Shown here: positions 3,736 through 51,560 of the stretch, piece by piece
Position numbering within the stretch: position 1 is the first letter of the stretch
Layout: every line of letters begins with the position of its first letter
Assembly: GCA_947167515.1 (NCBI GenBank)
Contig: CAMVIM010000003.1
Span: 62,001 to 126,000, forward strand
Length of the DNA: 64,000 nt
Origin: an uncultured Prevotellaceae bacterium
GTDB lineage: Bacteria; Bacteroidota; Bacteroidia; Bacteroidales; Bacteroidaceae
Direction of reading: 5' to 3'
Position numbers and translations under genes: made by a program
The notes under the pieces: generated by a model
Told to the model about the DNA's origin: nothing
Databases searched by the model: none
What the model saw: the letters and a program-made list of their open reading frames with translations, nothing else

Positions 3736-3840
3736 TGTAGCAAATGCTACACTGACGTTGTAGCAAACGCTACACTGGCACTGTAGCAACTGCTACACTG
3801 GCGATGTAGCAACTGCTACACTAGGTAGTGTAGCAAAATG
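3736..3840. repeat. Phased dyad array 1 (five units, 23-bp period)
   Basis: Units begin TGTAGC at 3736, 3759, 3782, 3805 and 3829, so the steps are 23, 23, 23 and 24. The first four each form the dyad TGTAGC-NNNN-GCTACA followed by a 7-8 nt linker (CTGACGT, CTGGCAC, and so on); the fifth is a half unit. The four loop bases vary (AAAT, AAAC, AACT, AACT) while the arms are invariant. The array fills the gap between mlaE and mlaF. A second array with the same architecture lies at 32890-32988. It resembles a REP/BIME-type element; its function is unknown. Confidence 0.9.
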
Positions 3841-3871
3841 GGAAACGAACTAAAACCATAACAGAAACGGA

Positions 3872-4651
3872 ATGATTAAAGTAGAACATCTGTATAAGAG
3901 TTTTGAGGACCGTGACGTGCTCAAGGACATCAATGCCATCTTCCGCGATGGCGAGGTCAACCTCATCATCGGCCAGAGCGGTAGCGGAAAGACCGTGCTG
4001 ATGAAGAATATTGTGGGGCTGCTCACACCGACCAGCGGCAGCATCTATTACGACAACCGCGATTTCGTGACGCTGACGAAGAAGGAGAGAATCCTGCTGC
4101 GACGCGAGATGGGCATGATTTTCCAGAGTGCCGCGCTGTTCGACTCGATGACGGTGCTCGACAACGTGATGTTCCCGCTCAACATGTTTTCCTACGACGC
4201 TTATGAAGACCGTCGGAAACGCGCACTCGACTGCTTGGCGCGTGTCAACCTGCAAGGTGCCGAAAACAAGTTCCCGGGCGAGATTTCGGGCGGTATGCAG
4301 AAACGTGTGGCCATCGCACGTGCCATTGTACTCCAACCCAAATACCTCTTCTGCGATGAGCCGAACTCTGGTCTTGACCCCAAGACGAGCATCGTGATTG
4401 ACGAACTCATCGCCGGCATCACCCACGAGGACAAAATCACCACCATCGTCAACACCCACGACATGAACTCTGTGATGGGCATCGGCGAGAACATCACCTT
4501 CATTTGCGAAGGACGTGCTGAGTGGCAGGGTAATAACAAGGAAATCATGGATGCCACCAACAAGAAACTGGAAGACTTCATCTTCGCCAGCGATATCCTC
4601 CGTCAGGCAAAGGAACTGCACGACCAACAACAACGAATGTCACGAATATGA
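3872..4651 (+). CDS. mlaF: MlaF-family phospholipid ABC transporter ATPase
   Basis: ATPase partner of MlaE in MCE-type phospholipid transport across the envelope. 259 residues. Walker A is GQSGSGKT at residues 34-41, Q-loop MIFQSAALFDSMTV at about 82-95, signature ISGGMQKR at about 138-145, Walker B LFCDEPNSGLDP at about 159-170, and switch His in VNTHDMNSV. The FQSAALFDSMTV and SGGMQKR forms are typical of MlaF rather than of other ABC ATPases. It is on the same strand as mlaE and probably in the same transcript despite the repeat array between them. Confidence 0.95.
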   Translation: MIKVEHLYKSFEDRDVLKDINAIFRDGEVNLIIGQSGSGKTVLMKNIVGLLTPTSGSIYYDNRDFVTLTKKERILLRREMGMIFQSAALFDSMTVLDNVMFPLNMFSYDAYEDRRKRALDCLARVNLQGAENKFPGEISGGMQKRVAIARAIVLQPKYLFCDEPNSGLDPKTSIVIDELIAGITHEDKITTIVNTHDMNSVMGIGENITFICEGRAEWQGNNKEIMDATNKKLEDFIFASDILRQAKELHDQQQRMSRI

Positions 4652-4747
4652 CGAATTTTAGTAAGGCATCCATTCGTTTTCATTCGTTGCCGCTTGCGGC
4701 ATTGATGACTTGATTCGTTCAATTAGAAAAAATCGTTGTTGAAAAAC

Positions 4748-7009
4748 ATGATTGTTTGCATAGCAGAGAAACCGAGTGTGGCACGTGACATTGCCAATGT
4801 GTTGGGTGCCAGAGAGATGAAGCAGGGCTACATCGAGGGCAACGGCTATCAGGTCACATGGACGTTCGGTCATTTGTGCGAACTGAAGGAGCCTGATGAG
4901 TACAATCCCCGTTGGAAACGTTGGGACTTATGGGATCTCCCCATGATTCCGGCGCGTTTCGGCATTCGCCTGAAGGATGATGACGGAGTGAAGCGGCAGT
5001 TTGCCACCATCGAGAAACTCATGCAGGCAGCCGATGGCATCATCAACTGCGGCGATGCCGGGCAAGAAGGTGAACTGATTCAGCGGTGGGTGATGCAGAA
5101 GGCTGGAGCGAAATGCCCTGTCAAACGTCTGTGGATTTCTTCGCTGACCGAAGAGGCTATCCGTGAAGGATTCAACAATCTGAAAGACCAAATCGAATAT
5201 CAATCGCTCTATGAGGCAGGACTTTGCCGCGCCATCGGCGACTGGACACTCGGCATGAACGCCACACGCCTCTACACGCTCAAGTATGGACAGCAGAAAC
5301 AGGTGCTCTCCATCGGACGTGTGCAGACCCCCACACTGGCACTCATCGTGCGTCGCCAACAGGAGATTGAGAGTTTCGTGCCTAAACAGAGTTGGGTGCT
5401 CTCCACACTCTATCGCGACACCAAATTCACCGCCATCGCCCACGACGAGGAAGCCGAAGCCGAAGATGCCGCCGAAGTGAAAGCGGCTGCAGAGCAGGGC
5501 AAGACCCTCAAGGGCAAAGGACCCATCTACAAACAGGTGGAGTTCTCGACGGAAGAAGAGGGTAGGGCTGTACTCCAATCCATTGAAGGGCAACCTTTTA
5601 CCGTCACCGACATCCAGAAGAAGAAAGGAACGGAAGCACCGCCTCGACTCTACGACCTGACCTCCTTGCAGGTGGATTGCAACCGCAAGTTTGGCTATTC
5701 TGCCGAGCAAACTCTGCAACTCATTCAGAGCCTCTACGAAAAGAAATTCACCACCTATCCACGTGTCGATACCACCTTCCTCAGCGATGACATCTATGCC
5801 AAATGCCCCCAGACGCTCCGAGGCTTGAAAGACTATGAGCAGTTCACACAGCCACTCGAAGGCAAACCGCTCCCCAAGTCGAAGAAGGTCTTTGACTCAT
5901 CCAAAGTGACTGACCACCACGCCATTATCCCCACAGGTGTGCCAGCTATCAGTCTCACTGATATGGAACGCAGGGTGTACGACTTGGTGACTCGTGCCTT
6001 CATCGCCGTCTTCTATCCCGACTGCAAGTTCGAGACCACGACGGTGTATGGAGAGGTAATTCAAGCCCCCTCCGACTCCCCCAAGGGGGAGGAAGAGCCA
6101 TCCGGGGTGTTGTTTCGCGCCAGTGGACGGGTGATTCTTGACGAGGGTTGGAAGGTCATCTACAAAAACATAACAGACTCTTCCGACGAAAACATGCCGG
6201 ATGGTAACTCCTCCCCCTTGGGGGAGGCTGGGTGGGGGCGTGGCGAGTCTGGTCCTCACATCCCCTCTCTTTCCGAGAAATGGACACAACCTCCTAAACC
6301 CTACACGGAGGCGACGCTCCTTCGTGCGATGGAGACAGCAGGCAAGTTTGTTGATAATGAGGAACTCCGCGATGCCATGAAGGAGAACGGCATCGGCCGT
6401 CCTTCCACCCGTGCCGCCATCATCGAAACCCTTTTCAAGCGGCACTACATCCGCAAGGAACGCAAAAGCCTCGTTGCCACTCCCACAGGTGTGGAACTCA
6501 TCGGCATCATCCACGAGGAACTCCTCAAGAGTGCCGAACTCACTGGCCTTTGGGAAAAGAAACTCCGCGAGATTGAGCGTCATCAATACGATGCCCAGAC
6601 CTTCATCGCCGAACTCAAACAGATGGTCACCGACATCATCAACACCGTCCGCAATGACCACTCCAACCGGCAAGTGGCTGTGACGACTGAGGAAGACCTG
6701 AAGAAAAAACGCACATCCTCTAAGCCGGCCCCCCAACTCTCAACTGTCAACTCTCAACTGTCAACTTCCAATGCCCCAGCAGGCTTCCAACCCAGCCCAC
6801 GCGCTGGGCGAAGTTCAAAGTCTCGTAAAGCCCAATCCCCGAAAACTAAGACCACCGAGCAGGTCAAAGCCGAGCACAACCCCGATGAAATCATCGGCAT
6901 GCCATGCCCCGTCTGCCACGAAGGCCACATCATCAAAGGCAAAACCGCCTACGGCTGCTCCCGTTGGAAAGAAGGCTGCACCTATCGCCTGCCGTTTGAA
7001 CAAGCGTAG
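4748..7009 (+). CDS. topB: DNA topoisomerase III (type IA), with repeat-derived in-frame insertions
   Basis: Type IA topoisomerase that passes single strands and decatenates DNA. ATG at 4748 (MIVCIAEKPSVARD) is preferred to a TTG 12 bases upstream because the Toprim domain starts there. Seen: Toprim acidic motif INCGDAGQEGELIQRW, the active-site tyrosine region SIGRVQTPTLALIVRRQQEIE and KKFTTYPRVDTTFLSDD, and ENGIGRPSTRAAIIETL. A C-terminal four-Cys zinc finger (CPVC, then C and C in YGCSRWKEGC) closes the 753-residue protein. Unusual: residues near 440-450 and 487-497 are encoded by an inverted pair of GC-rich palindromes, and residues about 663-688 by heptanucleotide repeats and a further palindrome, all in frame. 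These lie in linkers outside the catalytic motifs, so the enzyme is probably functional. Confidence 0.95.
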   Translation: MIVCIAEKPSVARDIANVLGAREMKQGYIEGNGYQVTWTFGHLCELKEPDEYNPRWKRWDLWDLPMIPARFGIRLKDDDGVKRQFATIEKLMQAADGIINCGDAGQEGELIQRWVMQKAGAKCPVKRLWISSLTEEAIREGFNNLKDQIEYQSLYEAGLCRAIGDWTLGMNATRLYTLKYGQQKQVLSIGRVQTPTLALIVRRQQEIESFVPKQSWVLSTLYRDTKFTAIAHDEEAEAEDAAEVKAAAEQGKTLKGKGPIYKQVEFSTEEEGRAVLQSIEGQPFTVTDIQKKKGTEAPPRLYDLTSLQVDCNRKFGYSAEQTLQLIQSLYEKKFTTYPRVDTTFLSDDIYAKCPQTLRGLKDYEQFTQPLEGKPLPKSKKVFDSSKVTDHHAIIPTGVPAISLTDMERRVYDLVTRAFIAVFYPDCKFETTTVYGEVIQAPSDSPKGEEEPSGVLFRASGRVILDEGWKVIYKNITDSSDENMPDGNSSPLGEAGWGRGESGPHIPSLSEKWTQPPKPYTEATLLRAMETAGKFVDNEELRDAMKENGIGRPSTRAAIIETLFKRHYIRKERKSLVATPTGVELIGIIHEELLKSAELTGLWEKKLREIERHQYDAQTFIAELKQMVTDIINTVRNDHSNRQVAVTTEEDLKKKRTSSKPAPQLSTVNSQLSTSNAPAGFQPSPRAGRSSKSRKAQSPKTKTTEQVKAEHNPDEIIGMPCPVCHEGHIIKGKTAYGCSRWKEGCTYRLPFEQA
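6065..6095 (+). repeat. GC-rich palindromic element, copy A in topB
   Basis: The core CCCCCAAGGGGGAGG is preceded by GCCCCCTCCGACT. It is the inverse of the copy at 6208-6239 with a few mismatches, and it belongs to the same family as the pair around the second susD (35222-35252 and 35337-35366). It is translated in frame as A-P-S-D-S-P-K-G-E-E within TopB. Confidence 0.85.
6208..6239 (-). repeat. GC-rich palindromic element, copy B in topB (inverted)
   Basis: CTCCTCCCCCTTGGGGGAGG followed by CTGGGTGGGGGC. Its reverse complement aligns with the element at 6065-6095. Translated as S-S-P-L-G-E-A-G-W-G-R within TopB. The pair encloses 112 nt and could fold into a long stem in the topB mRNA. Confidence 0.85.
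6734..6768 (+). repeat. Heptanucleotide tract inside topB
   Basis: Five units: CAACTCT, CAACTGT, CAACTCT, CAACTGT, CAACTTC. They are translated as part of the low-complexity linker P-Q-L-S-T-V-N-S-Q-L-S-T. Seven is not a multiple of three, so gain or loss of one unit would shift the frame ahead of the C-terminal zinc finger. Confidence 0.85.
6792..6811 (+). repeat. 20-bp palindromic repeat in topB, second copy at 26946-26965
   Basis: CCAGCCCACGCGCTGGGCGA contains the dyad GCCCA-CGCGC-TGGGC. Its exact reverse complement occurs at 26946-26965 in an intergenic region. Both copies lie beside heptanucleotide tracts. Confidence 0.85.
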
Positions 7010-7078
7010 TTTGTTAATTCGTGTACTGCTGCACAAAAAAGTTGGGCAAGAACCACAAAAAAGTCCTTGCCCTTCTTG

Positions 7079-7107
7079 TTTGTTTCGAAAATTTTTTTGT
7101 ACCTTTG
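7079..7107 (+). promoter_or_regulatory. Bacteroidetes-type promoter upstream of candidate ncRNA
   Basis: TTTG at 7079-7082, a 17-bp spacer, then TACCTTTG at 7100-7107, an exact match to the -7 consensus TAnnTTTG. Predicted transcript start is about 7113-7115. It is followed by more than 350 bp without a gene, which supports a non-coding transcript. Confidence 0.6.
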
Positions 7108-7112
7108 TAACT

Positions 7113-7375
7113 GCATTGTCAATCAAACCTAAGCGTAGGTGGCAGTGTAACAACTTATTGGTAATAACAACAGCGTTTGTGCTATATTCGGTAATGTCCT
7201 AGAACCTAGCAACTTCATCCGACATTCACGAAAGGTAGAGTACTAACGTCTGCGCGGTAGCGTGGGCGGGACTTATCCTCGTGAATGGGTTTTGCTAGGA
7301 CCTTAGGACATAGGAAAGAGCCGTTTCACGCTCTTTTCATGCCCTAAGGTTCTTGCTTGTAGAACCCGTCCTTCC
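7113..7375 (+). ncRNA. Candidate structured non-coding RNA, type not identified
   Basis: A gene-free stretch with its own promoter and clear nested complementarity. ATGTCCTA (7194-7201) pairs with TAGGACAT (7304-7311), CCTAGCAA (7205-7212) with TTGCTAGG (7292-7299), and CATTCACG (7223-7230) with CGTGAATG (7280-7287), giving a rod about 118 nt long with small asymmetric internal loops. Inside it GTCTGCGC can pair with GCGTGGGC. Flanking hairpins are ACCTA-AGCG-TAGGT (7127-7140), AAAGAGC/GCTCTTT (7315-7336) and GGTTCT/AGAACC (7348-7366). A long interrupted rod is reminiscent of 6S-like RNAs, but I cannot confirm a family. It could also be the 5' leader of the following genes. Confidence 0.5.
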
Positions 7376-7485
7376 GAAGAACAGCCTTTCGCTTCAAGTA
7401 CAAAAACATCAAACTCCTTGCGATAATATAAACATCATAAAGGAACAAAACTTCTATATATAGTCATTAAAAAAACACTTACATT

Positions 7486-7776
7486 ATGGAGCATCTTGAT
7501 TTAGAAAAAGTAAAACAGGCTATTGATGCAATACCTGACATCAGATTCGATTCTCATCGTTTAATCAAAGAACTTGTAAAACAGCATGAGGATGAGTACA
7601 TCATGATGTTAAAACCTCATCAAGGAGGTTTTAGAGAACTACATGGCACAATTGGGCGTTTCCTGTCATCACATCAAGAAGAATTTAATATACAAAAAAT
7701 CGAAACTCAATCCAGTGAAAATGTAAAAGGGTATGAGAGTCGGAATGCATTATGGGAAAAGAAAAACAAGCATTAA
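7486..7776 (+). CDS. Small protein of unknown function
   Basis: 96 residues, not recognised. It begins MEHLDLEKVKQAIDAIPD, is soluble and charged with helical character, and has no signal peptide or membrane segment. The C-terminal third is rich in Asn, Glu and Lys. Base composition is clearly more AT-rich than in neighbouring core genes, as for the next two genes. It is the first gene after the candidate ncRNA. The absence of any competing frame in this AT-rich stretch and the in-line arrangement with the next two genes support it as real. Confidence 0.6.
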   Translation: MEHLDLEKVKQAIDAIPDIRFDSHRLIKELVKQHEDEYIMMLKPHQGGFRELHGTIGRFLSSHQEEFNIQKIETQSSENVKGYESRNALWEKKNKH

Positions 7777-7929
7777 TGAACTAACTTGTCAGAAGTAATT
7801 CTGCGGATAAGACTACTATTCTTTGTTATTAATTATGTTTGAGAGAAAAGTTGGAAGTACATAAAATGCTTAGGGAAAAGTAAAAGTGACATCTTCTAGT
7901 CTTTTCAAGAAAACAAAAAAGAAACTATC

Positions 7930-8421
7930 ATGATGAAAGGTTGTCTGAGTATTATATTGGTATCATTAGCAATAGTTCTTTGCTTTATGTTTCCATTCCT
8001 TTCTATTCCTGTGATTGCAACTGCATGTATAATTATAGGTCTTTTATTATGTAAAGAAGTTTTTTTGTTTATTTTAAACCTCTATTGGACTCTTTATGGG
8101 GCAATTCTTGACCTTTTCGTTGTGCTGATCAGTAATTTTTCTCCATCTTTTAGCCTACATTATGACAAATATAGGGTTTACTATATTACTTTGCTTGAAA
8201 TTGTATGTACGATTTTCCTTATTCATATAACAGGACTTCGTTTTTTATATTCGATTATAATATCACTTGTTATAGCAGTACCTTCTTTATTTAGAAACAT
8301 TACGGCAAAGCGTGCAATTTCCGAAGAACTTTGGGAAATGAAGAAGGCAAATCTTATTAGAAGTGGCAAATCGTATGAAGAGGCATTGGATTATTTAAAT
8401 GAACGCTTTACAATTGAATAA
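7930..8421 (+). CDS. Small integral membrane protein of unknown function
   Basis: 163 residues. There are two closely spaced hydrophobic helices at the N-terminus (about residues 4-45), another hydrophobic stretch (about 46-70), and a further pair at about 86-125 (YITLLEIVCTIFLIHITG, LRFLYSIIISLVIAVPSL). A charged cytoplasmic-type tail follows (KRAISEELWEMKKANLIRSG, then YEEALDYLNERF). The tail resembles short helical tails in many Bacteroidales membrane proteins, but I assign no function. AT-rich, and 153 bp downstream of the previous gene on the same strand. Confidence 0.6.
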   Translation: MMKGCLSIILVSLAIVLCFMFPFLSIPVIATACIIIGLLLCKEVFLFILNLYWTLYGAILDLFVVLISNFSPSFSLHYDKYRVYYITLLEIVCTIFLIHITGLRFLYSIIISLVIAVPSLFRNITAKRAISEELWEMKKANLIRSGKSYEEALDYLNERFTIE

Positions 8422-8497
8422 CGGACTATAATAAAATTGAGTATATGAGATATTCTGTTTACTGTTTTATTTTATTCATTAATTAAGAATCATCATT

Positions 8498-9496
8498 ATG
8501 AAATCGTTTAGAAGTAACAAAAAAATCATAAAAGCAACGCTCTGGAACAAAGAACGATATGTGCTTGTTTCCTTTTTTATTGGTATTAGCATCTCCTTGG
8601 GAGCGTGTAAAGAAAATTCTAATAATGAGGTGGATATAACTGAAGGGCTTATTAAAGCAGTGCACCGTTATTCGGACGAAATTGAAGCAAAAGAAAGGGT
8701 GGAAAGACAAAAAGAAGCAGAACTAATAGGAACATATATTATTGGCGAAAATTACGGAATAATGGGTATATATCCAGATAAGACCGTTAGGATAAAAATC
8801 CATGGTGGAACTTACGCTGGTTCCGTGGTCACAGGACTATTTGGAGATTACGATGATTATGTTGAAATAGACATATCCGAATCCATACCTGTAAAATGGA
8901 ATGGGTGGTTTTGGGAAGATGCTTTTAGTTTATATATGGATGTTCATAAAGAATATCTCTATTTTAGTTATAGTGCATACAAAGCAAAGGATGAGAATAA
9001 TAGATGGATGATTAGGAGGAGAAATCCTAATGATAATTCCTCGGAATACCCACAAAAGAAAATACGTGTCGTGACTGATAATTCAGAGAGCAGTTTATAT
9101 GAAAACTATGGAATGAAGATGTCTGTAAATGAAATGATTGAATTTGGAAAAAAATATGAGAAAGGATTGGACTGTAATAAAGATCCACAAAAAGCTTTTT
9201 ACTATTACCAAAAAGCAGCGGAAATGGGAGATGCCACAGGATTAAATAAGATGGGAAACATGTACTCACAGGGCATCGGATGTGAACGAGATCCTGCCAC
9301 CGCTTTTTATTATTATAAGCAAGCCGCAGAAAAAGGAAACATGTACGCACAGTTCAATCTCGCCAATTTTTATTGGCTCGGAAGCGTAGTGGAAGAAGAT
9401 AGGGAGTTGGCGATTATTTGGTTTCGCCGCTCTGCTGCACAAGGTTATACCCCCGCAAAAAAGTTCTTGAAAGAAATGGTGGGAGAGGAGATGTGA
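8498..9496 (+). CDS. Sel1-repeat lipoprotein
   Basis: 332 residues. A long basic n-region (about 20 residues) precedes a hydrophobic segment ending in the lipobox SLGAC, with the lipidated Cys near residue 37. The middle (about 75-185) is a beta-rich region with no recognised family. The C-terminal third contains three Sel1-like repeats: MIEFGKKYEKGLDCNKDPQK, then AAEMGDATGLNKMGNMYSQG and AAEKGNMYAQFNLANFYWLG, ending in ELAIIWFRRSAAQGYTPAKK. Sel1 repeats are alpha-alpha solenoids used for protein-protein contacts. It closes the AT-rich islet and is followed by a strong terminator. Function unknown. Confidence 0.8.
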   Translation: MKSFRSNKKIIKATLWNKERYVLVSFFIGISISLGACKENSNNEVDITEGLIKAVHRYSDEIEAKERVERQKEAELIGTYIIGENYGIMGIYPDKTVRIKIHGGTYAGSVVTGLFGDYDDYVEIDISESIPVKWNGWFWEDAFSLYMDVHKEYLYFSYSAYKAKDENNRWMIRRRNPNDNSSEYPQKKIRVVTDNSESSLYENYGMKMSVNEMIEFGKKYEKGLDCNKDPQKAFYYYQKAAEMGDATGLNKMGNMYSQGIGCERDPATAFYYYKQAAEKGNMYAQFNLANFYWLGSVVEEDRELAIIWFRRSAAQGYTPAKKFLKEMVGEEM

Positions 9497-9522
9497 GATT
9501 TTTCTTTTCCTTAGCCCCCATC

Positions 9523-9557
9523 AAAAGGCTCCACACAATATCGGAGCCTTTTTTTCG
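9523..9557 (+). terminator. Intrinsic terminator after the Sel1-repeat gene
   Basis: AAAAGGCTCC (9523-9532), a 10-nt loop, then GGAGCCTTTT (9543-9552) with a run of T residues to 9555. Perfect 10-bp stem. Confidence 0.9.
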
Positions 9558-9568
9558 TTTTTAGTAGT

Positions 9569-11671: not shown

Positions 11672-11686
11672 CGGTTTCTACGTTCA

Positions 11687-12307
11687 TTATGCTTCAGGGG
11701 TTTGTTCTGTGTTTTCTTCTGGCATTTCCTCGAACTCTTTCTCTCCTGTGCCATCTTCTCCTAAGAAGGTGTACTGGAACTTGTCGCTCTTGGCCGATGG
11801 GAACTGGGAGCGGGGGTCGATGTCGGGGCGATTCTGTAAATGTTCGAGGATGCGGAGGTGGGCATCCAAAGCGCTGTTGGCTTTGAGGCGCACACGGAAG
11901 GGGGTGTCAATGTATTGGCACTTGCCGGTGTCGGGCATGGTGATGACACGCTTGAACATGAGGAATACTTCCCACCAACCGATTTTCTGCTCGCTGAGAG
12001 CGTCCATGATGTTCTTCTTGCGCTCGGCCATGGTGACTGCGCGGTCGGCTTTTTGTTCCTTGCGCATGGCTTGTTCCTCCTTGAATTGTTCCATGGTTTC
12101 GGCTTCTGTCTTGAGGAAGAGCACGTAGTTGGAATAGCTCACCTTCAGACGAAAGGGGTAGAGATTGGATGAGTTGAGGAACGTGGCGATGCGGCTGGCC
12201 ATGTTGCTTTCCATCTTGATTTCACCGATGGAACGCAGGAATTCGAGTGCTTCATCAATACTTTTTGCCAAGCACTCGTGGTCGAAATATCTAACGTATA
12301 AATTCAT
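11687..12307 (-). CDS. Conserved protein of unknown function
   Basis: 206 residues, not recognised as a characterised family. No signal peptide or membrane helix. It starts MNLYVRYFDHECL; the middle has a Lys/Glu-rich helical stretch (EEQAMRKEQKADRAVTMAER) and the C-terminus is acidic (KEFEEMPEENTEQTPEA). It ends 15 bp from the convergent porE-like gene. A -7-type box (TATCTTTG on the minus strand) at 12337-12344 and a heptanucleotide tract lie just upstream of its start. Confidence 0.75.
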   Translation of the reverse strand: MNLYVRYFDHECLAKSIDEALEFLRSIGEIKMESNMASRIATFLNSSNLYPFRLKVSYSNYVLFLKTEAETMEQFKEEQAMRKEQKADRAVTMAERKKNIMDALSEQKIGWWEVFLMFKRVITMPDTGKCQYIDTPFRVRLKANSALDAHLRILEHLQNRPDIDPRSQFPSAKSDKFQYTFLGEDGTGEKEFEEMPEENTEQTPEA

Positions 12308-12336
12308 CTGTGTTGTTTAGCTTAGTTTTTTGTGTG

Positions 12337-12344
12337 CAAAGATA
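12337..12344 (-). promoter_or_regulatory. -7 box for the gene starting at 12307
   Basis: CAAAGATA on the plus strand reads TATCTTTG on the minus strand, an exact TAnnTTTG match 30 bp ahead of the ATG. The -33 position falls in the repeat tract and has no clear TTTG. Confidence 0.45.
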
Positions 12345-12348
12345 AGAA

Positions 12349-14977: not shown

Positions 14978-15001
14978 TGTTCAGTTTTGTTTACTGCTCC
15001 G

Positions 15002-16355: not shown

Positions 16356-16868
16356 TTACTTCTTGTTGGTTACCATACTGAAGACAGTCGCAACGATGGT
16401 TACAATCGTGAGAATCAGGATTGAAATCATGGATGTGTCTGTCAGGATGATGTCGGTCGGGTCGTTCCAGCGCTCACCGTTGATGAGCAGCACCTCGCTC
16501 TGGTTGGCAATACCAGTGACGATGCCGATGATGACTGACACGAGGAAGGTACCCCATGCCATGACACCAGCCTTGCTGGCCATGCCGATGTCCTCATTCT
16601 TGGACTTGTTGCCACCGCTGACGAAACCATAGATGACTGCGCCAATAGTTGCAAGAGCTGTTGCGATGATGAGGATGTAAGTCCAGATGATCAGGAGGTC
16701 TGTCATGGCTGGATCGTTGAACTTAGGATTCTCCTCATAAGGAGTATCGTAGCCGATAAGGAGGAAGAGAGCCGTGACCAAGATGGAAATGCCGATGAGC
16801 ACCCACAGCGTAATCTTGGAGATCTTCTCGACCTTATCCTGTGCGCATATTACTTGTGTATTATCCAT
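16356..16868 (-). CDS. Membrane protein of unknown function in the exb operon
   Basis: 170 residues with four hydrophobic segments at about 19-40, 60-84, 103-122 and 147-167, and a short cytoplasmic N-terminus. Not a member of ExbB or ExbD by motif. Its position between exbB and two exbD genes suggests an accessory subunit of the proton-driven motor, but this is inferred from context only. Confidence 0.75.
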   Translation of the reverse strand: MDNTQVICAQDKVEKISKITLWVLIGISILVTALFLLIGYDTPYEENPKFNDPAMTDLLIIWTYILIIATALATIGAVIYGFVSGGNKSKNEDIGMASKAGVMAWGTFLVSVIIGIVTGIANQSEVLLINGERWNDPTDIILTDTSMISILILTIVTIVATVFSMVTNKK

Positions 16869-16964
16869 TTTTGTTTTCTCCTTTAAGTTTTAGAATTAGT
16901 TAGTGACTGAGTGTAGGGAATAAGCTATAGATTTATTTGAATCTTTTATCCCTAAATCATTCAT

Positions 16965-17786
16965 TTACTTCTTGTTGCTGTACTTTGCAACAATGTCAAG
17001 GAGAGAAATGGTGGAGTCTTCCATCTTAGCGGTAAGACCTTCAATTTCAGCAAGGATGTAGTTGTAGAATACCTGAAGGATGAGGGCTACGACGATACCG
17101 AAGATTGTGGTCAAAAGGGCCACCTTCATACCTCCTGCAACGACTGTTGGAGAGATGTCACCTGCAGCCTGGATGTCGTCGAATGCCTGCACCATACCAA
17201 TCACAGTTCCCAAGAATCCGAGAGATGGAGCCATACCGATGAAGAGGGTAATCCAAGAGCATCCGCTTTCGAGCTTGGAAGCCTGTACTGCACCGTAAGC
17301 AACAACTGATTTCTCCACTGCGTCGGCACCATCGTTCAGACGGAGAAGACCCTGATAGAAGATAGAAGCGATAGGACCGCGAGTTTCACGTGCGATGCTC
17401 TTAGCGCCTTCGAGGTCGCCCTTCTTGAGGAGAGCTTCTTCAACGTCCTCGATCAGTTTCACAGTGTTCACCTTTGAAAGTGCGAGGTAGATGATACGCT
17501 CGATACAGAAAGCAAGACCCAGAATGAGGGCGACGGCTACGAGTGCCATGAAGCCTGCAGAACCTTCGATGAACTTCGTTTTGATAGTCTTGTACATACC
17601 TGTCTCAACTGGCTCTGACTCAACAGGCTCTTCCTCTACGGCTGGAGCTGCTGCAGAGTCAACTGCTGCTGAATCAACCTGCTCAACTGCGGCAGTGTCT
17701 GCTGCTTCGTCCTGAGCTGAAACTGACTGTGTCATACCAAATGTGAACACACCCATCAATGCAATGATTGCAAAAACTTTTTTCAT
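16965..17786 (-). CDS. exbB: ExbB/TolQ/MotA-family proton channel
   Basis: 273 residues. Stator of the TonB energising complex. Unusual N-terminus: an apparent cleavable signal sequence (MKKVFAIIALMGVFTFGM, then SVSAQ) and an Ala/Glu/Val-rich acidic stretch (about 25-62), then the family core with three membrane helices at about 76-102, 170-195 and 215-240. Seen: IASIFYQGLLRL and the conserved SLGFLGTVIGMVQAF region and the ATTIFG-like LLTTIFGIVVAL. First gene of the exb operon. Confidence 0.92.
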   Translation of the reverse strand: MKKVFAIIALMGVFTFGMTQSVSAQDEAADTAAVEQVDSAAVDSAAAPAVEEEPVESEPVETGMYKTIKTKFIEGSAGFMALVAVALILGLAFCIERIIYLALSKVNTVKLIEDVEEALLKKGDLEGAKSIARETRGPIASIFYQGLLRLNDGADAVEKSVVAYGAVQASKLESGCSWITLFIGMAPSLGFLGTVIGMVQAFDDIQAAGDISPTVVAGGMKVALLTTIFGIVVALILQVFYNYILAEIEGLTAKMEDSTISLLDIVAKYSNKK

Positions 17787-19934: not shown

Positions 19935-19997
19935 CGTACCCCTCGGCTACGCTTTGCCGTACCCCTCGACTACGACCTGCCGTACCCCTCGGGTACG
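19935..19997. repeat. Phased dyad array 3 (three units, 23-bp period)
   Basis: Units CGTACCCCTCGGCTACG, CGTACCCCTCGACTACG and CGTACCCCTCGGGTACG begin at 19935, 19958 and 19981. Each is a CGTA...TACG dyad followed by a 6-nt linker. The sequence differs from arrays 1 and 2, but the 23-bp step and the GTA/TAC ends are shared. It lies 21 bp beyond the tonB terminator. Confidence 0.85.
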
Positions 19998-32889: not shown

Positions 32890-32988
32890 TGTAGAATTTG
32901 CTACATGCCCAGTGTAGCAATTGCTACATTGGCACTGTAGCAGTTGCTACACTGGCGGTGTAGCGTTCGCTACACTGGGGTGTGTAGC
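32890..32988. repeat. Phased dyad array 2 (five units, 23-bp period)
   Basis: Units begin at 32890, 32913, 32936, 32959 and 32983, giving steps of 23, 23, 23 and 24 exactly as in array 1. Dyads TGTAGA-ATTT-GCTACA, TGTAGC-AATT-GCTACA, TGTAGC-AGTT-GCTACA and TGTAGC-GTTC-GCTACA, then a half unit. Loops vary while arms are nearly constant. It sits 16 bp beyond the SusD terminator. Apart from this, the terminator and the deoD promoter, nothing else is seen in 32741-33065. Confidence 0.9.
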
Positions 32989-33003
32989 GACAAGGGAAAA
33001 GAA

Positions 33004-33037
33004 AAGGGGGATATGCCACCGCTGGCATATCCCCCTT
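33004..33037 (-). terminator. Terminator of the FAS1/SusC/SusD operon
   Basis: AAGGGGGATATGCCA (33004-33018), loop CCGC, TGGCATATCCCCCTT (33023-33037): a perfect 15-bp stem 29 bp past the SusD stop, with a U-rich stretch after it on the minus strand. Confidence 0.88.
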
Positions 33038-40615: not shown

Positions 40616-40633
40616 ATTTTTTCATTTATTGGT

Positions 40634-42754: not shown

Positions 42755-42765
42755 TGTTCTTTAGG

Positions 42766-44667: not shown

Positions 44668-44690
44668 TGTCTTGTCTTTTTCTACGGTTT

Positions 44691-47600
44691 TTAGAATCCA
44701 AGATTTACACTGACGGTGAATGACTTAGCACGTGGTGTCTTTGATTTGTCGATACAAACACCCCATGTACCGTAAGAGACTTCGGGGTCGATACCTGTAT
44801 ATTTCGTCAGCACGAAGAGGTTGTTGGCAGATGCCGTGATGCGCAAGCTTTGGAAGCCGAGGTCTTTGCACACCTTGTTGGGCAGTGAGTAACCCAGCTG
44901 CATGTATTGCAGACGGAGGTAGTCACCTTTCTCCACAAAGCGGTCGCTGGCCAGTGAGTTGTAGGATGCACCAATGTTTGCGTTCATGGCGCGAGGAATC
45001 TCGGTGATGTCACCGTTCTTGCGCCATCGCCAAGCCACGGCACGAGACTGGTTGATGTTAGAGCGCATGGCCTCGTTGTTCAGACGTGTCAAGTTCGCAA
45101 TCTTGTTGCCAAGACGATAGTTGAAGGAGAGTTTCAGCGTCCACTGCCCGTAGTTGAAGTTGAAACCAAAACCACCATTTACCTTCGGGTTAGAGTTACC
45201 CAGATAAACGATGTCAAGCTCGTTGATCTGACCGTCGTGGTTGACGTCTTCATAAATCACATCACCGCCCTTGAACTCGTAGTTCTTGCCTCCATAGTTG
45301 AAATACATGTGGAGAGGATTACCCTTCGAGTCATAAAGGATGGCACCGCTGGCATCGCGTGCTACAGGGAGGGTGGCGTTTTCACCACGTTCCTCAGCTG
45401 CGGCAGCCGTGTTGTCGCCGTAGGTAGAGCGTGACAGCTCGGTGTAGCCGCTATGGTCGTAGTCGTAACGGTAAACGCCTTTGTAGCGGAAACCGTAAAT
45501 AGAACCGACGGCATTGCCAATCTGGATACGCTTCAAGAAGTCGGCATTGTTATAAGAGTAGTCACCGTTCATGGTTGCCAACACGGTTGCATCCATATCG
45601 GTGATTGTGTTGATGTTTTGAGCGATGTTGAAGTTGACAGACATGGAGAACTTGCCCTTCTTTAGGAACTTGCCTGTGTTGAGGAACAATTCCCAACCAC
45701 GGTTGCGCAAGCCTCCTACGTTTTTGGAACCTAACGAGCCGAAACCTGTTGAACCTGGGATACCCACGCCGCCCATCAGCAGGTCTTTTGTTTGCTTATT
45801 GTAGTAGTTGAAGTCGAACTGCAGCAAGTCGTTGAAAAGGTTCAGGTTGGCACCCAAGTTCCACGAAGTGGTGGTTTCCCACTTCAGATCTGTCAGTCTC
45901 AAGCCGTCAGGGTTGATGGCGGAGATGGTTCTGTTGCCTGAGCCGTACTTTCCGTAGCTGCTATACATATTATACATCAAGTATTCGGCACTTGGCTCAT
46001 GGCCTACGCGTCCCCACGATGGACGGAATGACAGCATGGATACGATGTGGTCGATGTGCAGTTTCTCGAAGAACGGTTCCTGGTTGATGTTCCAACGGGC
46101 GGAGATGCCGGGGAATGTACCCCACTTGCGGCCAGCACCGAACTTGGTTGAACCGTCGCGGCGCACAGTGGCGTCGAACGAGTAGCGGCCGTCGAAGAAG
46201 GAGATGTGCATGCTACCCAGCATGGAGGCTCTGCGCCACTGACTGGTGCCCGATGTTGCGCCAGTCAGGTAGGCTTCGGCGATGGAAGAGTCGATGCCAG
46301 TTGGCAAACCATTGTGCGAAATGTATTGGCTGGTACCATTACCGGAAGTGAACTCAAACTGTCCCAAGAAACTCATTGAAAGCAGTTCTGGATTGTTGAA
46401 GTGTGGAATGAAGATGAGTTTCTCTCGGTTGGTGAAAGCCAATGACTTATACTCGCTATTGCTGGTCTTGTTCACGCCTGAAGCCCAAGAATCGGTTGTC
46501 AGTGTGGACGGGAAGTACGTGTTGGTCGATTCGTTGTAGATGTCCATGTACACCTCCGCATTCAGGTTCAACTGATGAGACTCCGAATCTTTGCCCAAGA
46601 GTTTGTACTGGATGTTGAACTGCGGGTTGATACGATAGGTCGATTGGTTGTTGAAAGCCTGGTGTGCAATGGCTACAGGGTTGCCGATAGCCTTCATGTC
46701 GCGCAGATAGTAGGACGAGTAATAGTTGTTGCCGCCGGCATTTGTGGTCGGAATGGTGGGCAGCATCTTGTAGTAGTCACCTGTCAGCTGGCCGTACTGG
46801 TCATACTCATTGATGGACATGTTAGGCATGCTGTTGTATGCCTTGCCGAGAATGGATGTTGTTGAACTGCCATCCCAGTTACGGTGGTTGTCGGTGTAGG
46901 TGAGGGCGAAGTTGGTCGAGAAGCGGATGCGGTCAGACACATCGTAGTCGAGCACAAGACGCGTGGAGAAACGGTCGAGTGTCTGCTTGATGATGATACC
47001 AGTTTCATGGTCGTAACCGCCTGAAATACGGAACTTGGCCTTTTCACCACCACCATTGATGGTGATGTAGTAATTGTGTGTCTGACCAAACTGATTGACG
47101 GCATCCACCCAGTCTGTGTTCTTGTTGAAGTTGTAATATTGTACAGGGAAGGAGGGGTCGTAGTTCAACTCCACCATGTCTGATGTTGCAGCATTCTGCT
47201 TGGGGTTGAAGTAAGCCTCCTTGAGCATCATGGTGTAGCCGTCGCCGTCGAGCATGTTCAGGCCAGAGGGAGCCCATTTGCCTGTGAAGCGGTAGGAGAA
47301 GTTAATCTTCGTCTTACCAGCCACACCACGGCGAGTGGTGATTTCAATCACACCATTGGAACCCCTCGAACCCCAGATGGCGGTTGCGGCGGCGTCCTTC
47401 AGCACCTTGATTTCCTTGATGTCTTCAGGGTTGACGGAGAGGAGGGTGGAGAACTGTTCCTCGTTGTCGAGGTCTTCAAAGTTCACTTCCGACACGTCAT
47501 CAGGCAGGTCGAATATGTTGCCATCGACCACGATGAGTGGTTCTGCCGAGCCATTGATGGTGCTGACACCACGCATACGCATGGAGGTACCGGCACCCAG

Positions 47601-48113
47601 GTTACCAGAGTTGGCGATGATGTCGAGACCGGCAATCTTACCCTGCAGGGCTTCGTCGGCCGATGCGAAGGAAAGTCCTTCCACATCGTCCATGTTCATG
47701 GTCTGGGTGGCCACAGAGATTTCTTTCAGCGGGATGGTCATACCGTTGCTCTGCACCATAGGCTTGGCTTTCACCACCACTTCTGCCAACTGCGTGTTGT
47801 CTTGCAGACGGATGTTGAACTTGGCGGTGTTGCCAATCACTTGGCTCCAAGTCTTGTAACCGACGTAGCTGACCACCAGTTTGTCTTTGGGGTTCTTGAC
47901 GACCATGGAGAAGTTACCGTTGATGTCGGTCACGGCAGCTTCCACGATACGGTTGTTGTTGTCTCGCTCCACAACGTTGGCCATTGCGATGCCGCCTAAG
48001 TCGTCATAGACGTAACCCGTGACGCGTCGTTGTTGAGCCATGGCTGAACTTACACAGAAGAACAGCACGAGAGATGTGAGAATAAATTTGATCTTGTTCA
48101 TATTGCGTTCCAT
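44691..48113 (-). CDS. SusC/RagA TonB-linked outer-membrane channel (first pair)
   Basis: 1140 residues; ATG at 48113, or possibly the ATG at 48101 (MNKIKFILTSL), which gives a more regular signal peptide and has GGAA 9-12 bases ahead. Signal peptide ends SSAMAQQ. Regulatory CarboxypepD-like domain (RRVTGYVYDDLGGIAMANVV), plug with the SusC hallmark IKEIKVLKDAAATAIWGSRG, then a barrel ending in FTVSVNLGF with the usual terminal Phe. Uses TonB/ExbBD energy. Second gene of the operon, 9 bp after the first FAS1 gene. Confidence 0.95.
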   Translation of the reverse strand: MERNMNKIKFILTSLVLFFCVSSAMAQQRRVTGYVYDDLGGIAMANVVERDNNNRIVEAAVTDINGNFSMVVKNPKDKLVVSYVGYKTWSQVIGNTAKFNIRLQDNTQLAEVVVKAKPMVQSNGMTIPLKEISVATQTMNMDDVEGLSFASADEALQGKIAGLDIIANSGNLGAGTSMRMRGVSTINGSAEPLIVVDGNIFDLPDDVSEVNFEDLDNEEQFSTLLSVNPEDIKEIKVLKDAAATAIWGSRGSNGVIEITTRRGVAGKTKINFSYRFTGKWAPSGLNMLDGDGYTMMLKEAYFNPKQNAATSDMVELNYDPSFPVQYYNFNKNTDWVDAVNQFGQTHNYYITINGGGEKAKFRISGGYDHETGIIIKQTLDRFSTRLVLDYDVSDRIRFSTNFALTYTDNHRNWDGSSTTSILGKAYNSMPNMSINEYDQYGQLTGDYYKMLPTIPTTNAGGNNYYSSYYLRDMKAIGNPVAIAHQAFNNQSTYRINPQFNIQYKLLGKDSESHQLNLNAEVYMDIYNESTNTYFPSTLTTDSWASGVNKTSNSEYKSLAFTNREKLIFIPHFNNPELLSMSFLGQFEFTSGNGTSQYISHNGLPTGIDSSIAEAYLTGATSGTSQWRRASMLGSMHISFFDGRYSFDATVRRDGSTKFGAGRKWGTFPGISARWNINQEPFFEKLHIDHIVSMLSFRPSWGRVGHEPSAEYLMYNMYSSYGKYGSGNRTISAINPDGLRLTDLKWETTTSWNLGANLNLFNDLLQFDFNYYNKQTKDLLMGGVGIPGSTGFGSLGSKNVGGLRNRGWELFLNTGKFLKKGKFSMSVNFNIAQNINTITDMDATVLATMNGDYSYNNADFLKRIQIGNAVGSIYGFRYKGVYRYDYDHSGYTELSRSTYGDNTAAAAEERGENATLPVARDASGAILYDSKGNPLHMYFNYGGKNYEFKGGDVIYEDVNHDGQINELDIVYLGNSNPKVNGGFGFNFNYGQWTLKLSFNYRLGNKIANLTRLNNEAMRSNINQSRAVAWRWRKNGDITEIPRAMNANIGASYNSLASDRFVEKGDYLRLQYMQLGYSLPNKVCKDLGFQSLRITASANNLFVLTKYTGIDPEVSYGTWGVCIDKSKTPRAKSFTVSVNLGF

Positions 48114-48122
48114 GTAAGTTGA

Positions 48123-51098
48123 TTATTCGAGAATTCTGTAGTTGGCGAAATAGGAGTCGTGCATGCTCGGTGACTTCCACACAGAGTCGTAGCGTCCGCC
48201 CTCATAAGTGGTGAAGTTCAGCACACTGTTGATACCATGTATCACAGCGGAGGAACTGGTGGTGAGGGTGATGCTGATGGGGCTGCTGTTCTTGTTTGTG
48301 ATGTAGTCGCGCACGACGATGTTCTTGTCATCAGTGATGCTATGTTTCTCACCTGTAGCATCTTCTATGGTCAGTTCACCGTTGCCGGCACCTGAAACAA
48401 ACAACTTGCGATAAACGCCCGTCTTGCTGTTGATGGTGGCTGTTTCGTAGGCAGTGCGCTGAGTGGCGGGTGTGTCAGCAAAGATGCAGTCATCCTGGAA
48501 ATGATACTTGACGAAGTTCACCATCACTTCCACCATATCCTTCACTTCATTGTTACGCTGTTCCAGCTCTTCGTCAGTCATTTCAGTCCTATCTTCCGGA
48601 TCCTTGTCCAACTCCAGCAGTTCGCGCAGTTGATGCCAGGTCGGCAAGCCCTTGCTTTCTGCTTCTTCCATCGCGTCATTGGTAGGAATGTAGATGGTGT
48701 AGCGGTAGTTGTTGAAGAAACGAATGTTAGAGTTGTCACTACCACTGATTTTGCTGAAGGTGGTCGTGAAGTTGCCATCCTCGTCTTTTGTGTAGTAGTA
48801 GCAAGGCAGACCGCCGTTGTTGGCAAAGATGGTGAATTTCTGCTGTGCAGTGGTTGACTTGTAGCCAATTTCATCCAGGACTTCGGCGTCGGTCTGACAA
48901 AGATCGAAGAACTTGGAGAAGTCGGGGTTCTTATACATGGCAGAATAAACGCTCTCGATGGTTGGGATGAGCGGCTGGTCAATCATGTAGGCAAAACCGT
49001 TTCCGTAGCCGTTGGTCTGCGCCGATTTGTCATCGAAGCCCGTCACATAGCATTGTTCATCGTTGTTGATTTGCCATCCACCCTTCACCTTCATGCCTGC
49101 TTTTCGCTTTTCAGCATCCTCAGCATAGATGACGGCGTTGTTCTTGGTGTAGAAGTAGTGCTTGTCGCATTCCATACCCGTCTCAGTCTCCTTAATGAAT
49201 GAACCGGAAACACTGTCGCTGTGGATGACAGTGTGGGTTTCCAGCATGTCCTTCAGACGATTGTTGTAGGTGGCGGCAGATACATTCTCTGTTGCCACGA
49301 GTTCCCCCAAACTACCTGTTTGATTGATGGGGTCGTAGTTGTACTTGTAGGAAGCCACGCTCAGCTGGTTGCTCTTCTTGGTGGCATCCCATGTGTACTT
49401 GTAGGCACGTCCGATGAGGGTGGTGCCGTCTCCGAATGCAGGATTGTAGAACGACAGCGGGTCGATGTAGAGGAAGTTGTCGTCGTTGGGCACGAAGAAA
49501 GAAAAGCGTGAGCTCATGGCGAGCAGGTAGGCATTGTAGTTCAGAGGCACACTGCTGATGGTCATGTCCTTGATGGCATAACGGAAGATGTGCTTGTCTG
49601 TCTCGGTGTAGGTCGGTGCGAGCACGGCTGCGTATTCAGCAGGTGTGGTCACTTCGTCCATCAGGTAGATGACACCGTTGTTGGCAAAGAGCACGTCGAG
49701 AATCTTGCCGCGATGGTAGTCGTCAGTCTCGTCGAACATGGGGTCTTGTGCCGAGTTCTTGATGGTCTCAAACTTGCTGGGCACGGTGTTGTTGAAGGAA
49801 GCCTTCATCAGGTTGTTGAGCAAGCTCTGGATGACATCGATTGGAATTTGGTCAATAGCTTGATAGATGAGGTCGAGGTCTGTCGTGCTGGCAGAGATAC
49901 GATCCACCATGTCAGGAGCGTATGCCTTGATGAGGAAGTGTCCACCACCGTTCTCGTCGAAGAAGTACTGCGTGAGGTTCTTGTCGCTTGGACAGAAGAT
50001 GGCGGCCATGTCCTGCGCCTTGTCACTTTGGTCGTCGGCATAGGCGTTCCATCCTGGGTCGTAGTTCAGGTAGTGGCTCACAGCGTTGCCGGCAGGGTTG
50101 CCCACAGGGTCGGTGCCTGCATCGTTGAGGAGTTTGTTGTTACCTTGTGAACGGGTGGAGAAGTAACGCTTCTGGAAGACTGAATCCACATCGTTGCCAT
50201 AGAGCAGACGGTAGCGAGTGGTCAGGTCGGCACTGTAGAAAGGAGCCGAGAAGCGGTCTATCATGTGGCTGAAGATTTGTGTTCTGCTATCGGTGCGTAG
50301 CACTTCTGCCATGTTTTGTGGATTGACGAGCACTCTGTCGAGGCAATTGACGTATCCGTTCTGGCAGGTGATGTCTTGCTGCATCACCTTGCAGTTGTAG
50401 ATGTATGCATCATTCTTGTCGCGCTCCTGGCCGGTGAGAATCTTGAAGTCTGCATCGGTGATGTTCTTGTTGGCCATCTGTGCGGCCAGGAAGTGGGTCA
50501 TCATCGGGGTGGTGGCGTCGAGTGCCATGTAGATGCCCTTGTCGTTGTTGCGGAAACGTTCCCAGTAATCTTTGTCGTCAGGGTTGTAGCTGATGGGCAG
50601 GTCTTCTGCGAAGAGATGTGGCACCGAGTCGGTCACATCTGCTGCTGTTTCGCGGCGCAAAGCCTGTCCCTTTTCTGGCTGGTCGTTATCGCCGCCGCCA
50701 GCGGGGGTGCTTGACATCATTTCGAGCAGGTAGGCGTTGTTCACCATTGCGTTGTTCAGCAGCAGTTTTTTCTGACTCTTGGTCAGCTGGTCGTAGCTGC
50801 TTACTCCCCACGCATTGTTCTCGTAGAAGGTGTTGAAGGCCTCGTCGTTGGCAACGAAGAGCGTCTTTGAACCTGTACGAGCCAGAACCTCCTTGTAGTC
50901 AAGGTCGTTAATGAGCTTGACGAAGTTGGTGTAGTTGCCTTGGCTTTCAAGATATTGGTAAATGCTCGACCCAAGCCACGACGGATCTTCGTCGTCGAAC
51001 TTGTAGTCGTCCTTACACGAATAGGTTGAGCCGCACAAGACGAATAGGAAGAATGCTTTAGCGGCATACTGTCCTAATGTACAAAAGCGCTTGTTCAT
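48123..51098 (-). CDS. Fasciclin (FAS1)-domain surface lipoprotein, 991 residues
   Basis: Lipobox TYSC (Cys near residue 28), then an acidic stretch (KDDYKFDDEDPSW). Clear FAS1 starts: IYQYLESQGNYTNFVKLIND, ARTGSKTLFVANDEAFNTFY, and CQNGYVNCLDRVLVNPQNM, the second FAS1 block. Similar signals recur near residues 440-500 (FANNGVIYLMDEVTTPAEYA), and near 750-860 (FTIFANNGGLPCYY, RYTIYIPTNDAMEEAESKG), ending in a VIHGINSVLNF segment, so it has at least three FAS1-type units. First gene of the seven-gene operon. FAS1 modules mediate adhesion in other proteins; ligand unknown. Confidence 0.85.
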   Translation of the reverse strand: MNKRFCTLGQYAAKAFFLFVLCGSTYSCKDDYKFDDEDPSWLGSSIYQYLESQGNYTNFVKLINDLDYKEVLARTGSKTLFVANDEAFNTFYENNAWGVSSYDQLTKSQKKLLLNNAMVNNAYLLEMMSSTPAGGGDNDQPEKGQALRRETAADVTDSVPHLFAEDLPISYNPDDKDYWERFRNNDKGIYMALDATTPMMTHFLAAQMANKNITDADFKILTGQERDKNDAYIYNCKVMQQDITCQNGYVNCLDRVLVNPQNMAEVLRTDSRTQIFSHMIDRFSAPFYSADLTTRYRLLYGNDVDSVFQKRYFSTRSQGNNKLLNDAGTDPVGNPAGNAVSHYLNYDPGWNAYADDQSDKAQDMAAIFCPSDKNLTQYFFDENGGGHFLIKAYAPDMVDRISASTTDLDLIYQAIDQIPIDVIQSLLNNLMKASFNNTVPSKFETIKNSAQDPMFDETDDYHRGKILDVLFANNGVIYLMDEVTTPAEYAAVLAPTYTETDKHIFRYAIKDMTISSVPLNYNAYLLAMSSRFSFFVPNDDNFLYIDPLSFYNPAFGDGTTLIGRAYKYTWDATKKSNQLSVASYKYNYDPINQTGSLGELVATENVSAATYNNRLKDMLETHTVIHSDSVSGSFIKETETGMECDKHYFYTKNNAVIYAEDAEKRKAGMKVKGGWQINNDEQCYVTGFDDKSAQTNGYGNGFAYMIDQPLIPTIESVYSAMYKNPDFSKFFDLCQTDAEVLDEIGYKSTTAQQKFTIFANNGGLPCYYYTKDEDGNFTTTFSKISGSDNSNIRFFNNYRYTIYIPTNDAMEEAESKGLPTWHQLRELLELDKDPEDRTEMTDEELEQRNNEVKDMVEVMVNFVKYHFQDDCIFADTPATQRTAYETATINSKTGVYRKLFVSGAGNGELTIEDATGEKHSITDDKNIVVRDYITNKNSSPISITLTTSSSAVIHGINSVLNFTTYEGGRYDSVWKSPSMHDSYFANYRILE

Positions 51099-51226
51099 AA
51101 AGGTTAGATATTGTTTATAGTTTTAAAGATATTTAAATAGTCTTTCTTACATATATATATTATATATAATGTATGCTACATAGGAGTGATGAGTAAATAG
51201 GTTTATAAATTCTTTTCTGCGGCTCG

Positions 51227-51241
51227 CCCATTGAATGGGCC
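51227..51241 (-). promoter_or_regulatory. Hairpin at predicted 5' end of the operon mRNA
   Basis: GCCCATT-G-AATGGGC, a perfect 7-bp stem directly after the predicted start point of the FAS1/SusCD operon. A stabilising leader hairpin or regulator site is possible. Confidence 0.35.
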
Positions 51242-51251
51242 AAACCAATTG

Positions 51252-51259
51252 CAAAGATA
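51252..51259 (-). promoter_or_regulatory. Possible -7 box of the FAS1/SusCD operon
   Basis: TATCTTTG on the minus strand matches TAnnTTTG. It would give a leader of about 145 nt to the first ATG at 51098. No clear TTTG is present at -33, as expected for an activator- or ECF sigma-dependent promoter. The rest of 51099-51652 is AT-rich and holds array 4 and a terminator; no gene is seen. Confidence 0.4.
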
Positions 51260-51482
51260 ACAAGTATCTTCAAAACTTTGAGGTCATCAATGTGGTTTAA
51301 AGTCTTCTATTAACCTTTTTTAACGAATAAATAGTTAAATTCTATTTAAGAGGGTGATTTTTTACACACCAAAGTAGAAAAACTCTTCAACTATTTAACG
51401 GTTCTTTTCACTTCGATCTGCCGCTTTTAGCATCGTAAGCACACCAAACTGGGAGACGGAAATTCTGACTTAAGTGGAACGT

Positions 51483-51560
51483 CGTGCAAATTGTAATAGG
51501 AACGCCGTAGCATTTGTGTTTTGTGTGTCGTACAAATTGAATATGCAACGGCGTAGCACG
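51483..51560. repeat. Degenerate phased array 4 (23-bp period)
   Basis: CGTGC at 51483, CGTAG at 51506, CGTAC at 51529 and CGTAG at 51552: three exact 23-bp steps. Units 1 and 3 are similar to each other (GTCGTGCAAATTG and GTCGTACAAATTG, 46 bp apart) and so are units 2 and 4 (GCCGTAGCA and GGCGTAGCA). It lies 24 bp beyond the terminator of the GH128-like gene. Confidence 0.7.

Follow-up and report, generated by a model that had tools for sequence, protein, structure and literature searches.

Arrays in the window

The window, that is the whole stretch of 64,000 nucleotides analysed here from the genome of an uncultured Prevotellaceae bacterium, carries four places at which a short unit recurs every 23 bp. 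One lies between mlaE and mlaF, and two face a terminator-like hairpin. The features are:

2953..3699, plus strand: mlaE (permease; Pfam PF02405, E 3.3e-60), upstream of W1
3736..3834, no strand assigned: W1, a family A element in the mlaE-mlaF spacer, defined by TRF, lag identity and dyad positions
3872..4651, plus strand: ABC ATPase gene (Pfam PF00005), mlaF by position; adjoins mlaE, downstream of W1
19935..19997, minus strand: family C element, three CGTACCCCTCGRCTACG-like units at 23 bp
32890..32988, no strand assigned: W2, a family A element with dyads at 32890, 32913, 32936 and 32959 and a half unit at 32983
32998..33037, minus strand: terminator-like hairpin with a T tract, facing W2
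51480..51558, no strand assigned: family D repeat, a weak 23-bp direct repeat without a dyad array; similar units occur in L023 and L030
51578..51622, minus strand: terminator-like hairpin with a T tract, facing the family D repeat

W1 contains four full TGTAGC-N4-GCTACA dyads (starts 3736, 3759, 3782 and 3805; steps 23, 23 and 23), followed after an 8-nt spacer by the half unit TGTAGC at 3829 (step 24). The element therefore holds 4.5 units, rather than the five counted in the first-pass annotation. W2 has the same layout, with imperfect arms in its first dyad. The description of arms as conserved and loops as variable is right for family A. At 19935-19997, three CGTA-N9-TACG units follow one another at steps of 23 and 23, with all three cores in the same orientation. 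These three arrays are clear 23-bp tandem dyad arrays: all are detected by TRF, and their lag-23 identities (0.72 at 3736, 0.71 at 32890 and 0.85 at 19935) are reached by none of 20,000 Markov shuffles each. The fourth array, placed at 51483-51560, was missed by TRF on the window. At lag 23 it has an identity of 0.49 (p = 7.5e-4 for that lag by itself, 0.05 across all lags from 8 to 44), and the slightly longer stretch 51476-51575 gives p 0.0015 across lags. The 23-bp repeat at this place is real but weak, and it is a direct repeat, not the degenerate dyad array first proposed; by eye, its units are CGTCGTGCAAATT, CGCCGTAGCATTT, TGTCGTACAAATT and CGGCGTAGCA, starting at 51480, 51503, 51526 and 51549.

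Abundance and period in the genome

The host genome (3.68 Mb in 74 contigs, 98.85% complete) contains TGTAGC-N4-GCTACA at 25 places, versus two for the reversed pattern, and a generic 23-bp search brought out a second family, GTAATTACNTTTACGTCGTTNNC. Frequencies were taken from a sample of 464 kb, made up of the window and 20 stretches of 20 kb selected independently of repeats. At TRF scores of at least 50 the commonest period in this sample is 23 (25 rows, some overlapping), followed by 7 (18 rows) and 21 (14 rows), and 21 of the 25 period-23 rows are intergenic according to greedy ORF calls. A TRF-free lag scan of intergenic segments returned lag 23 in 23 cases, lag 46 in 15, lag 21 in 13 and lag 22 in seven, with 0-8 for the other lags.

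Array calls were made with short periods filtered out and a single best lag kept per place, a procedure that loses any array lying within a spurious ORF, as happens to the 19935 array. The sample then yields 42 intergenic calls, 28 of them at lag 21-24 and 19 at exactly 23; the 26 placed arrays compare with 121 intergenic regions of at least 120 bp. The same pipeline gave no array call in the shuffled sample, and two in Escherichia coli, neither at 21-24 (28 kb of intergenic DNA, against 45 kb in the own sample). The search of the genome and its relatives that had been suggested as a check thus places phased arrays far above chance. Clustering at 70% unit identity (the maximum among 400 shuffled-unit pairs being 0.70) divides the 19 arrays at 23 into 15 sequence groups, between which distant kinship is conceivable. 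Arrays of different sequence do therefore share the 23-bp step, as claimed, and do so far beyond the window from which the claim was drawn, although the pitch ranges from 21 to 24 between families. The arrays are a real and abundant class of intergenic element, defined by pitch more than by sequence.

Other repeats accompany them. Heptamer repeats (periods 7, 14 and 21) form a second common class, for example at 6734-6766 and 62498-62555 of the window, and the 21-bp signal consists in part of three heptamers. Over-represented intergenic 10-mers are chiefly promoter-like sequences and heptamer repeats. Arrays with different units lie side by side in a single intergenic region at L002, L007, L009, L019, L029 and L035, where the L035 cluster (16781-16988) spans 208 bp, or about nine 23-bp steps. 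Two family A arrays are found at contig ends (G000:C6:13 and G000:C63:7779, in L004 and L010), so that the elements may break short-read assemblies.

Internal layout of the families

With the two contig-end elements left out, complete family A elements have four dyads in seven cases and five in three (n = 10), and 32 of their 33 steps are 23 bp. The dyad has matches in 13 of 45 genus genomes, and two or more phased places occur only in the own genome, G007, G031, G036 and G042. G036 is the second richest of the 45; there, all five elements have four dyads and all 15 steps are 23. Family C occupies 40 places in the own genome at up to one mismatch, with three units in 9/12 elements and every step at 23. 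Its asymmetric core is found in either orientation inside fixed CGTA/TACG arms, and the order -++ in five of the nine three-unit elements (2.25 expected if random) is a weak sign of whole-element copying.

Family F, of which no element was found in the window, is built from the unit GGTSTGASTCASACC, which has 109 places in the genome (control, 0), or about 36 elements if each has three units. Its elements, at L083-L092, L021, L022 and L034, outnumber the arrays reported. Exactly three dyads are present in 18 of 20 elements at the loci sampled, the two exceptions having two and one, and in 12 of 13 in the own genome, where they stand between inverted flanks, CCTCAAAATC...GATTTTGAGG or variants. 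The step is 24 in 24/25 cases in the own genome, 24 and 24 in an element of G036, and 23 in 10/10 (five elements) in G024; at a further G024 place, C106, units lie 48 apart, which suggests a 24-bp step and therefore that G024 is not uniform. G007, G010, G012, G032, G035 and G036 each have family F-like elements at nine or ten places or more, that being about the number of candidates scored per genome. The dyad varies in length (15, 16, 17 or 20 bp), and the spacer fills the remainder to 22-24.

How would arrays so regular be made? Slippage duplication in place, with template switching at quasi-palindromes, would produce minisatellites in which switching perfects the arms and flips the loops, and the copying machinery sets the narrow pitch. 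Such an origin accords with loops, spacers and the family C core lying in both orientations within fixed arms, with the many different unit sequences that have been amplified and with the lack of clear dyads in about half of the arrays. However, slippage predicts no single narrow pitch that differs between clades. Furthermore, unit numbers are near-fixed, and end features (the 8-nt last spacer of family A and the inverted flanks of family F) recur at unrelated loci, which suggests copying of whole elements. Formation in place is considered rather unlikely.

The same sites in related species

The mlaE-mlaF junction was compared by eye across 28 congeneric loci. In L126, from the G036 genome, it holds a 23-bp dyad array with arms as in W1, and in L123 a 23-bp dyad array with TGTTAC/GTAACA arms. 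L127 and L129 carry unrelated 22-bp dyads (AGTACCTC/GAGGTACT and AGTACTTC/GAAGTACT, respectively), and L139 has a 9-bp CTAG array instead (about 7375-7470). In at least eight of the 28 loci mlaE and mlaF overlap, leaving no spacer; the genes of the others are separated by spacers, some short and some longer, that showed no dyad array by eye. Judging by coordinates, family A dyads lie about 40 bp from mlaE in G031. At the W2 site, four TGTTAC/GTAACA-type dyads follow one another every 23 bp in G007, two further genomes have other sequence, and G010 and G012 have no array and a spacer about 140 bp shorter.

Between species the arms change together (TGTAGC/GCTACA versus TGTTAC/GTAACA), and orthologous arrays with different arms could owe their difference to conversion, or to separate insertions into a site that is favoured. 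Empty sites exist at both places, in spacers too diverged for a target-site duplication to be read by eye. It is this distribution, the presence and absence at the mlaE-mlaF junction and at W2, from which mobility is inferred.

Gene orientation offers a second view of where arrays lie. In the genus, convergent spacers are enriched (19/51 arrays versus 57/293 regions, p 0.009) and divergent spacers are depleted (6/51 versus 77/293, p 0.03), counts from which six of 57 arrays were dropped because a flanking gene was missing or the region exceeded about 900 bp. Together with the conserved arms and variable loops of W1 and its counterpart in L126 (by eye), this bias would suit functional sites of the host, selected at gene ends, where they would give a nucleoid or regulatory protein a phased platform. 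It fits landing in harmless places equally well, which would yield the same bias, and the Prevotella-like genera are without it (4 convergent and 8 divergent of 28). Since arrays are also patchily present between sister species at the same site, a host role of this kind is judged unlikely. A position directly behind terminators was likewise considered and rejected as a rule: a terminator-like hairpin faces 5/24 own arrays within 80 bp (against 1.4 +- 1.2 when other regions are taken and 2.7 +- 1.4 when positions are drawn at random within the same region); equally many (5), however, lie on the hairpin's other side, and the other three groups show nothing.

Pitch between clades

The genus consists of uncultured rumen and hindgut Bacteroidaceae, and its member L145 is Candidatus Colivivens caballi, assigned as congeneric by MlaE identity (86%). 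With the same pipeline, lags of 21-24 account for 10 of 22 calls in random stretches of the genus and 19 of 35 at its mla locus. At the mla locus of Prevotella-like genera they make up 31 of 55, and exactly 22 is the lag in 26 of these 55. Further out, the corresponding counts are 7/14 in other genera of the family, 3/10 in other families of the order, 2/6 in other orders of the class and 0/2 in other classes of the phylum. When the own-genome sample and the first five comparison groups were shuffled, seven calls resulted in total, none at 21-24.

The pitch itself differs with relatedness. Genomes with an MlaE identity of at least 94%, the own genome included, have 35 arrays at 23 and six at 22, as against six at 23 and 36 at 22 for the remaining members of the genus taken together with the Prevotella-like genera (Fisher p 3e-11, with the 94% line drawn after the mla set was viewed, arrays of the same family being non-independent, and G042, a genome without an MlaE match, included in the far group). 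MlaE-distant members of the genus are represented by seven 10-kb stretches and one of G024, so the pitch there comes from few arrays. An AGTAC-type array keeps 22 in G036.

Some arrays have a shorter step. AT-rich 21-bp arrays with CTAAAACTCAAACTTTGAGTT-like units lie at L024:17635-17714, L025:11925-11994, L128:18451-18566 and L266:11879-11992; to judge by eye, several species of the genus seem to share this class, with the 21-bp step unchanged. Arrays of 21 bp with TTTACGTCGTAAA-type dyads are found at L195:3977-4096, in another genus, and at L261:11236-11345 (G037). By eye these dyads resemble the core of family B, which has a 23-bp step in the own genome.

Hairpins or duplex half-sites

Are the dyads kept as RNA hairpins or read as DNA? 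Strings of hairpins at mRNA 3' ends or in operon spacers, protecting or attenuating transcripts, were among the roles first proposed, and W1 does lie between two co-directional genes. W1, W2 and a family F element also fold into long rods far better than their shuffles (z -4.9, -8.7 and -11.0), and at some positions pairing between the outer flanks of family F exceeds that of flanks exchanged among elements, an excess that subfamily structure may inflate. However, the other two window arrays show no folding advantage over their shuffles: the 19935 array has z -1.2 (equalled by 20/200 shuffles) and 51476-51575 has z -0.7 (45/200). W2 and the repeat at 51483 lie past a terminator-like hairpin, and an Rfam search of nine sources matched two tRNAs and nothing else.

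The halves of the stems vary without covariation in families A and F. At positions 4/12 of family F the bases are complementary in 20/37 units, versus 22.9 expected under independent halves. At position 6/11 of family A, the 44 units comprise 33 CG, 7 TG, 4 CA and 0 TA. Compensatory change within dyads is confined to position 5/12 of family A, where double changes (AT) occur in 2/44 units with about 0.8 expected by chance, which leaves room for a little covariation. Nor do dyads 1 and 3 of family F covary with each other (34/54 versus a control of 35.1). With these tests negative for both families and no Rfam match, an RNA family was rejected; the proposal that the arrays are kept as RNA structure finds no support, and hairpin strings are seen as very unlikely.

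Symmetry is a property of the phased arrays all the same. With double and triple lags left out, arrays palindromic beyond column shuffles (z > 3) in five Bacteroidaceae groups number 45/95 at lag 21-24 versus 4/48 at other lags, and in all groups 46/100 versus 5/60; about half of the arrays at 21-24 are without a clear dyad. Independent stem halves and an excess of palindromes point to duplex half-sites rather than RNA stems, and these half-sites would be read by a protein. A role as protein-binding sites, also among those first proposed, would agree with the half-site counts. In family A the loop is purine...pyrimidine in 40/44 units, a pattern that would suit half-sites extended by one base each.

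Search for a mover and comparison with known systems

REP, BIME and REPIN sequences with RAYT are short, dispersed intergenic palindromes that occur in groups. The present arrays are likewise dispersed intergenic palindromes, and a REP-type transposase encoded elsewhere had been suggested to act on them. In contrast to REP, BIME and REPIN, they are tandem at one pitch and have many unit sequences, and neither the own genome nor G036 has a match to the Y1 transposase profile PF01797 at E <= 0.001. The same profile matches in 20/45 genus genomes at that threshold (14 above the curated cut-off). Movement by a RAYT (Y1) transposase is contradicted unless a much-diverged enzyme escapes the Pfam model, and we hold this origin to be highly improbable. 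A RAYT/REP origin was set aside for want of a PF01797 match in the own genome.

Two other carriers were considered and rejected. The genome has one DDE_Tnp_1 (PF01609) transposase only, whose end repeats are unlike the family F flanks, and this unrelatedness speaks against a link to an IS of this transposase family. Carriage by phages or plasmids was dropped after viral contigs gave no exact match to a family A pair or a family F pair (24-bp spacing) and a plasmid search with a family F element, at E <= 1e-5, came back empty. Family F is MITE-like in being short, non-coding and bounded by inverted flanks; such TIR-like flanks are seen in this family only, and we know of no general occurrence of internal phased dyads in MITEs.

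The closest known system is BrickBuilt, a minisatellite/MITE of Porphyromonas gingivalis, which is described as 23-nt tandem units without spacers, always intergenic and present in 19 dispersed copies in one genome, with 1 to 22.8 units, a number that varies between strains (PMC4596501). It is a single family with a leader and a tail, IS5-type TIRs and predicted long stem-loops, and one copy sits behind a Rho-independent terminator (PMC4596501). BrickBuilt and the present arrays share 23-nt tandem units (families A-C; family F is mostly 24), an intergenic and dispersed location and a Bacteroidales host, and W2 and the family D repeat also lie behind terminator-like hairpins. BrickBuilt is one family with a variable unit number, whereas here there are many families with a near-fixed number: four or five in 10/10 elements of family A and three in 18/20 of family F. 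Its unit AGAYCATARTATCCTCTCRTRTG has no match in the whole genome or the window at up to three mismatches, and 275 loci contain no exact copy of it. Nor was an IS5-type partner found for the present arrays, the sole PF01609 match having ends unlike the family F flanks. Literature searches, which covered few subscription papers, turned up nothing closer than BrickBuilt (see also PMC5771137 and PMC8040213). As far as these searches reach, the wider phenomenon is apparently undescribed.

A proposed element and its pitch

The array elements are about 65-115 bp long, non-coding and dispersed, with units set a constant 21-24 bp apart, or roughly two turns of the helix. We put at about even the chance that they are small non-autonomous mobile elements of phased half-sites, probably read as duplex by a dimeric protein. 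Under such a scheme the whole element would be copied and inserted as a unit by a trans-acting enzyme. Its dyads would be read as duplex DNA, each half separately, by a dimeric, perhaps polymerising, DNA-binding protein sitting once per pitch, which may be either the transposition enzyme or a host protein. With one dimer per pitch, it would make sense that loops, spacers and even the sequence of the arms turn over, whereas the pitch and the symmetry of the half-sites persist.

Why should the pitch be so constant? The spacing may be under selection, and it is possible that a protein imposes it. In a wider and more tentative form of this idea, which is conceivable though not probable, a trans-acting protein in the Prevotella-like Bacteroidaceae imposes the pitch (22 for the majority of genera, 23 for the clade to which the window belongs) on any sequence, through binding or copying, with one dimer per two helical turns. 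Families would then diversify while the ruler is kept, shifted by 1 bp in one clade. Alternatively, since the pitch is inherited within families (for family F, mostly 24 here and 23 in five G024 elements), its constancy could reflect descent rather than selection.

Ordinarily, a repeat element is recognised from its sequence. What is constant here is the spacing, across 15 unit groups, and it is 1 bp shorter in related genera. Even if descent alone accounts for it, the arrays are a frequent repeat class for which the literature searches returned no description, and they bear on annotation, on assembly breaks and on the spacing of genes inside operons. If a protein does impose the pitch, this would be a new way to recognise or build DNA repeats, in common bacteria of the gut and rumen.
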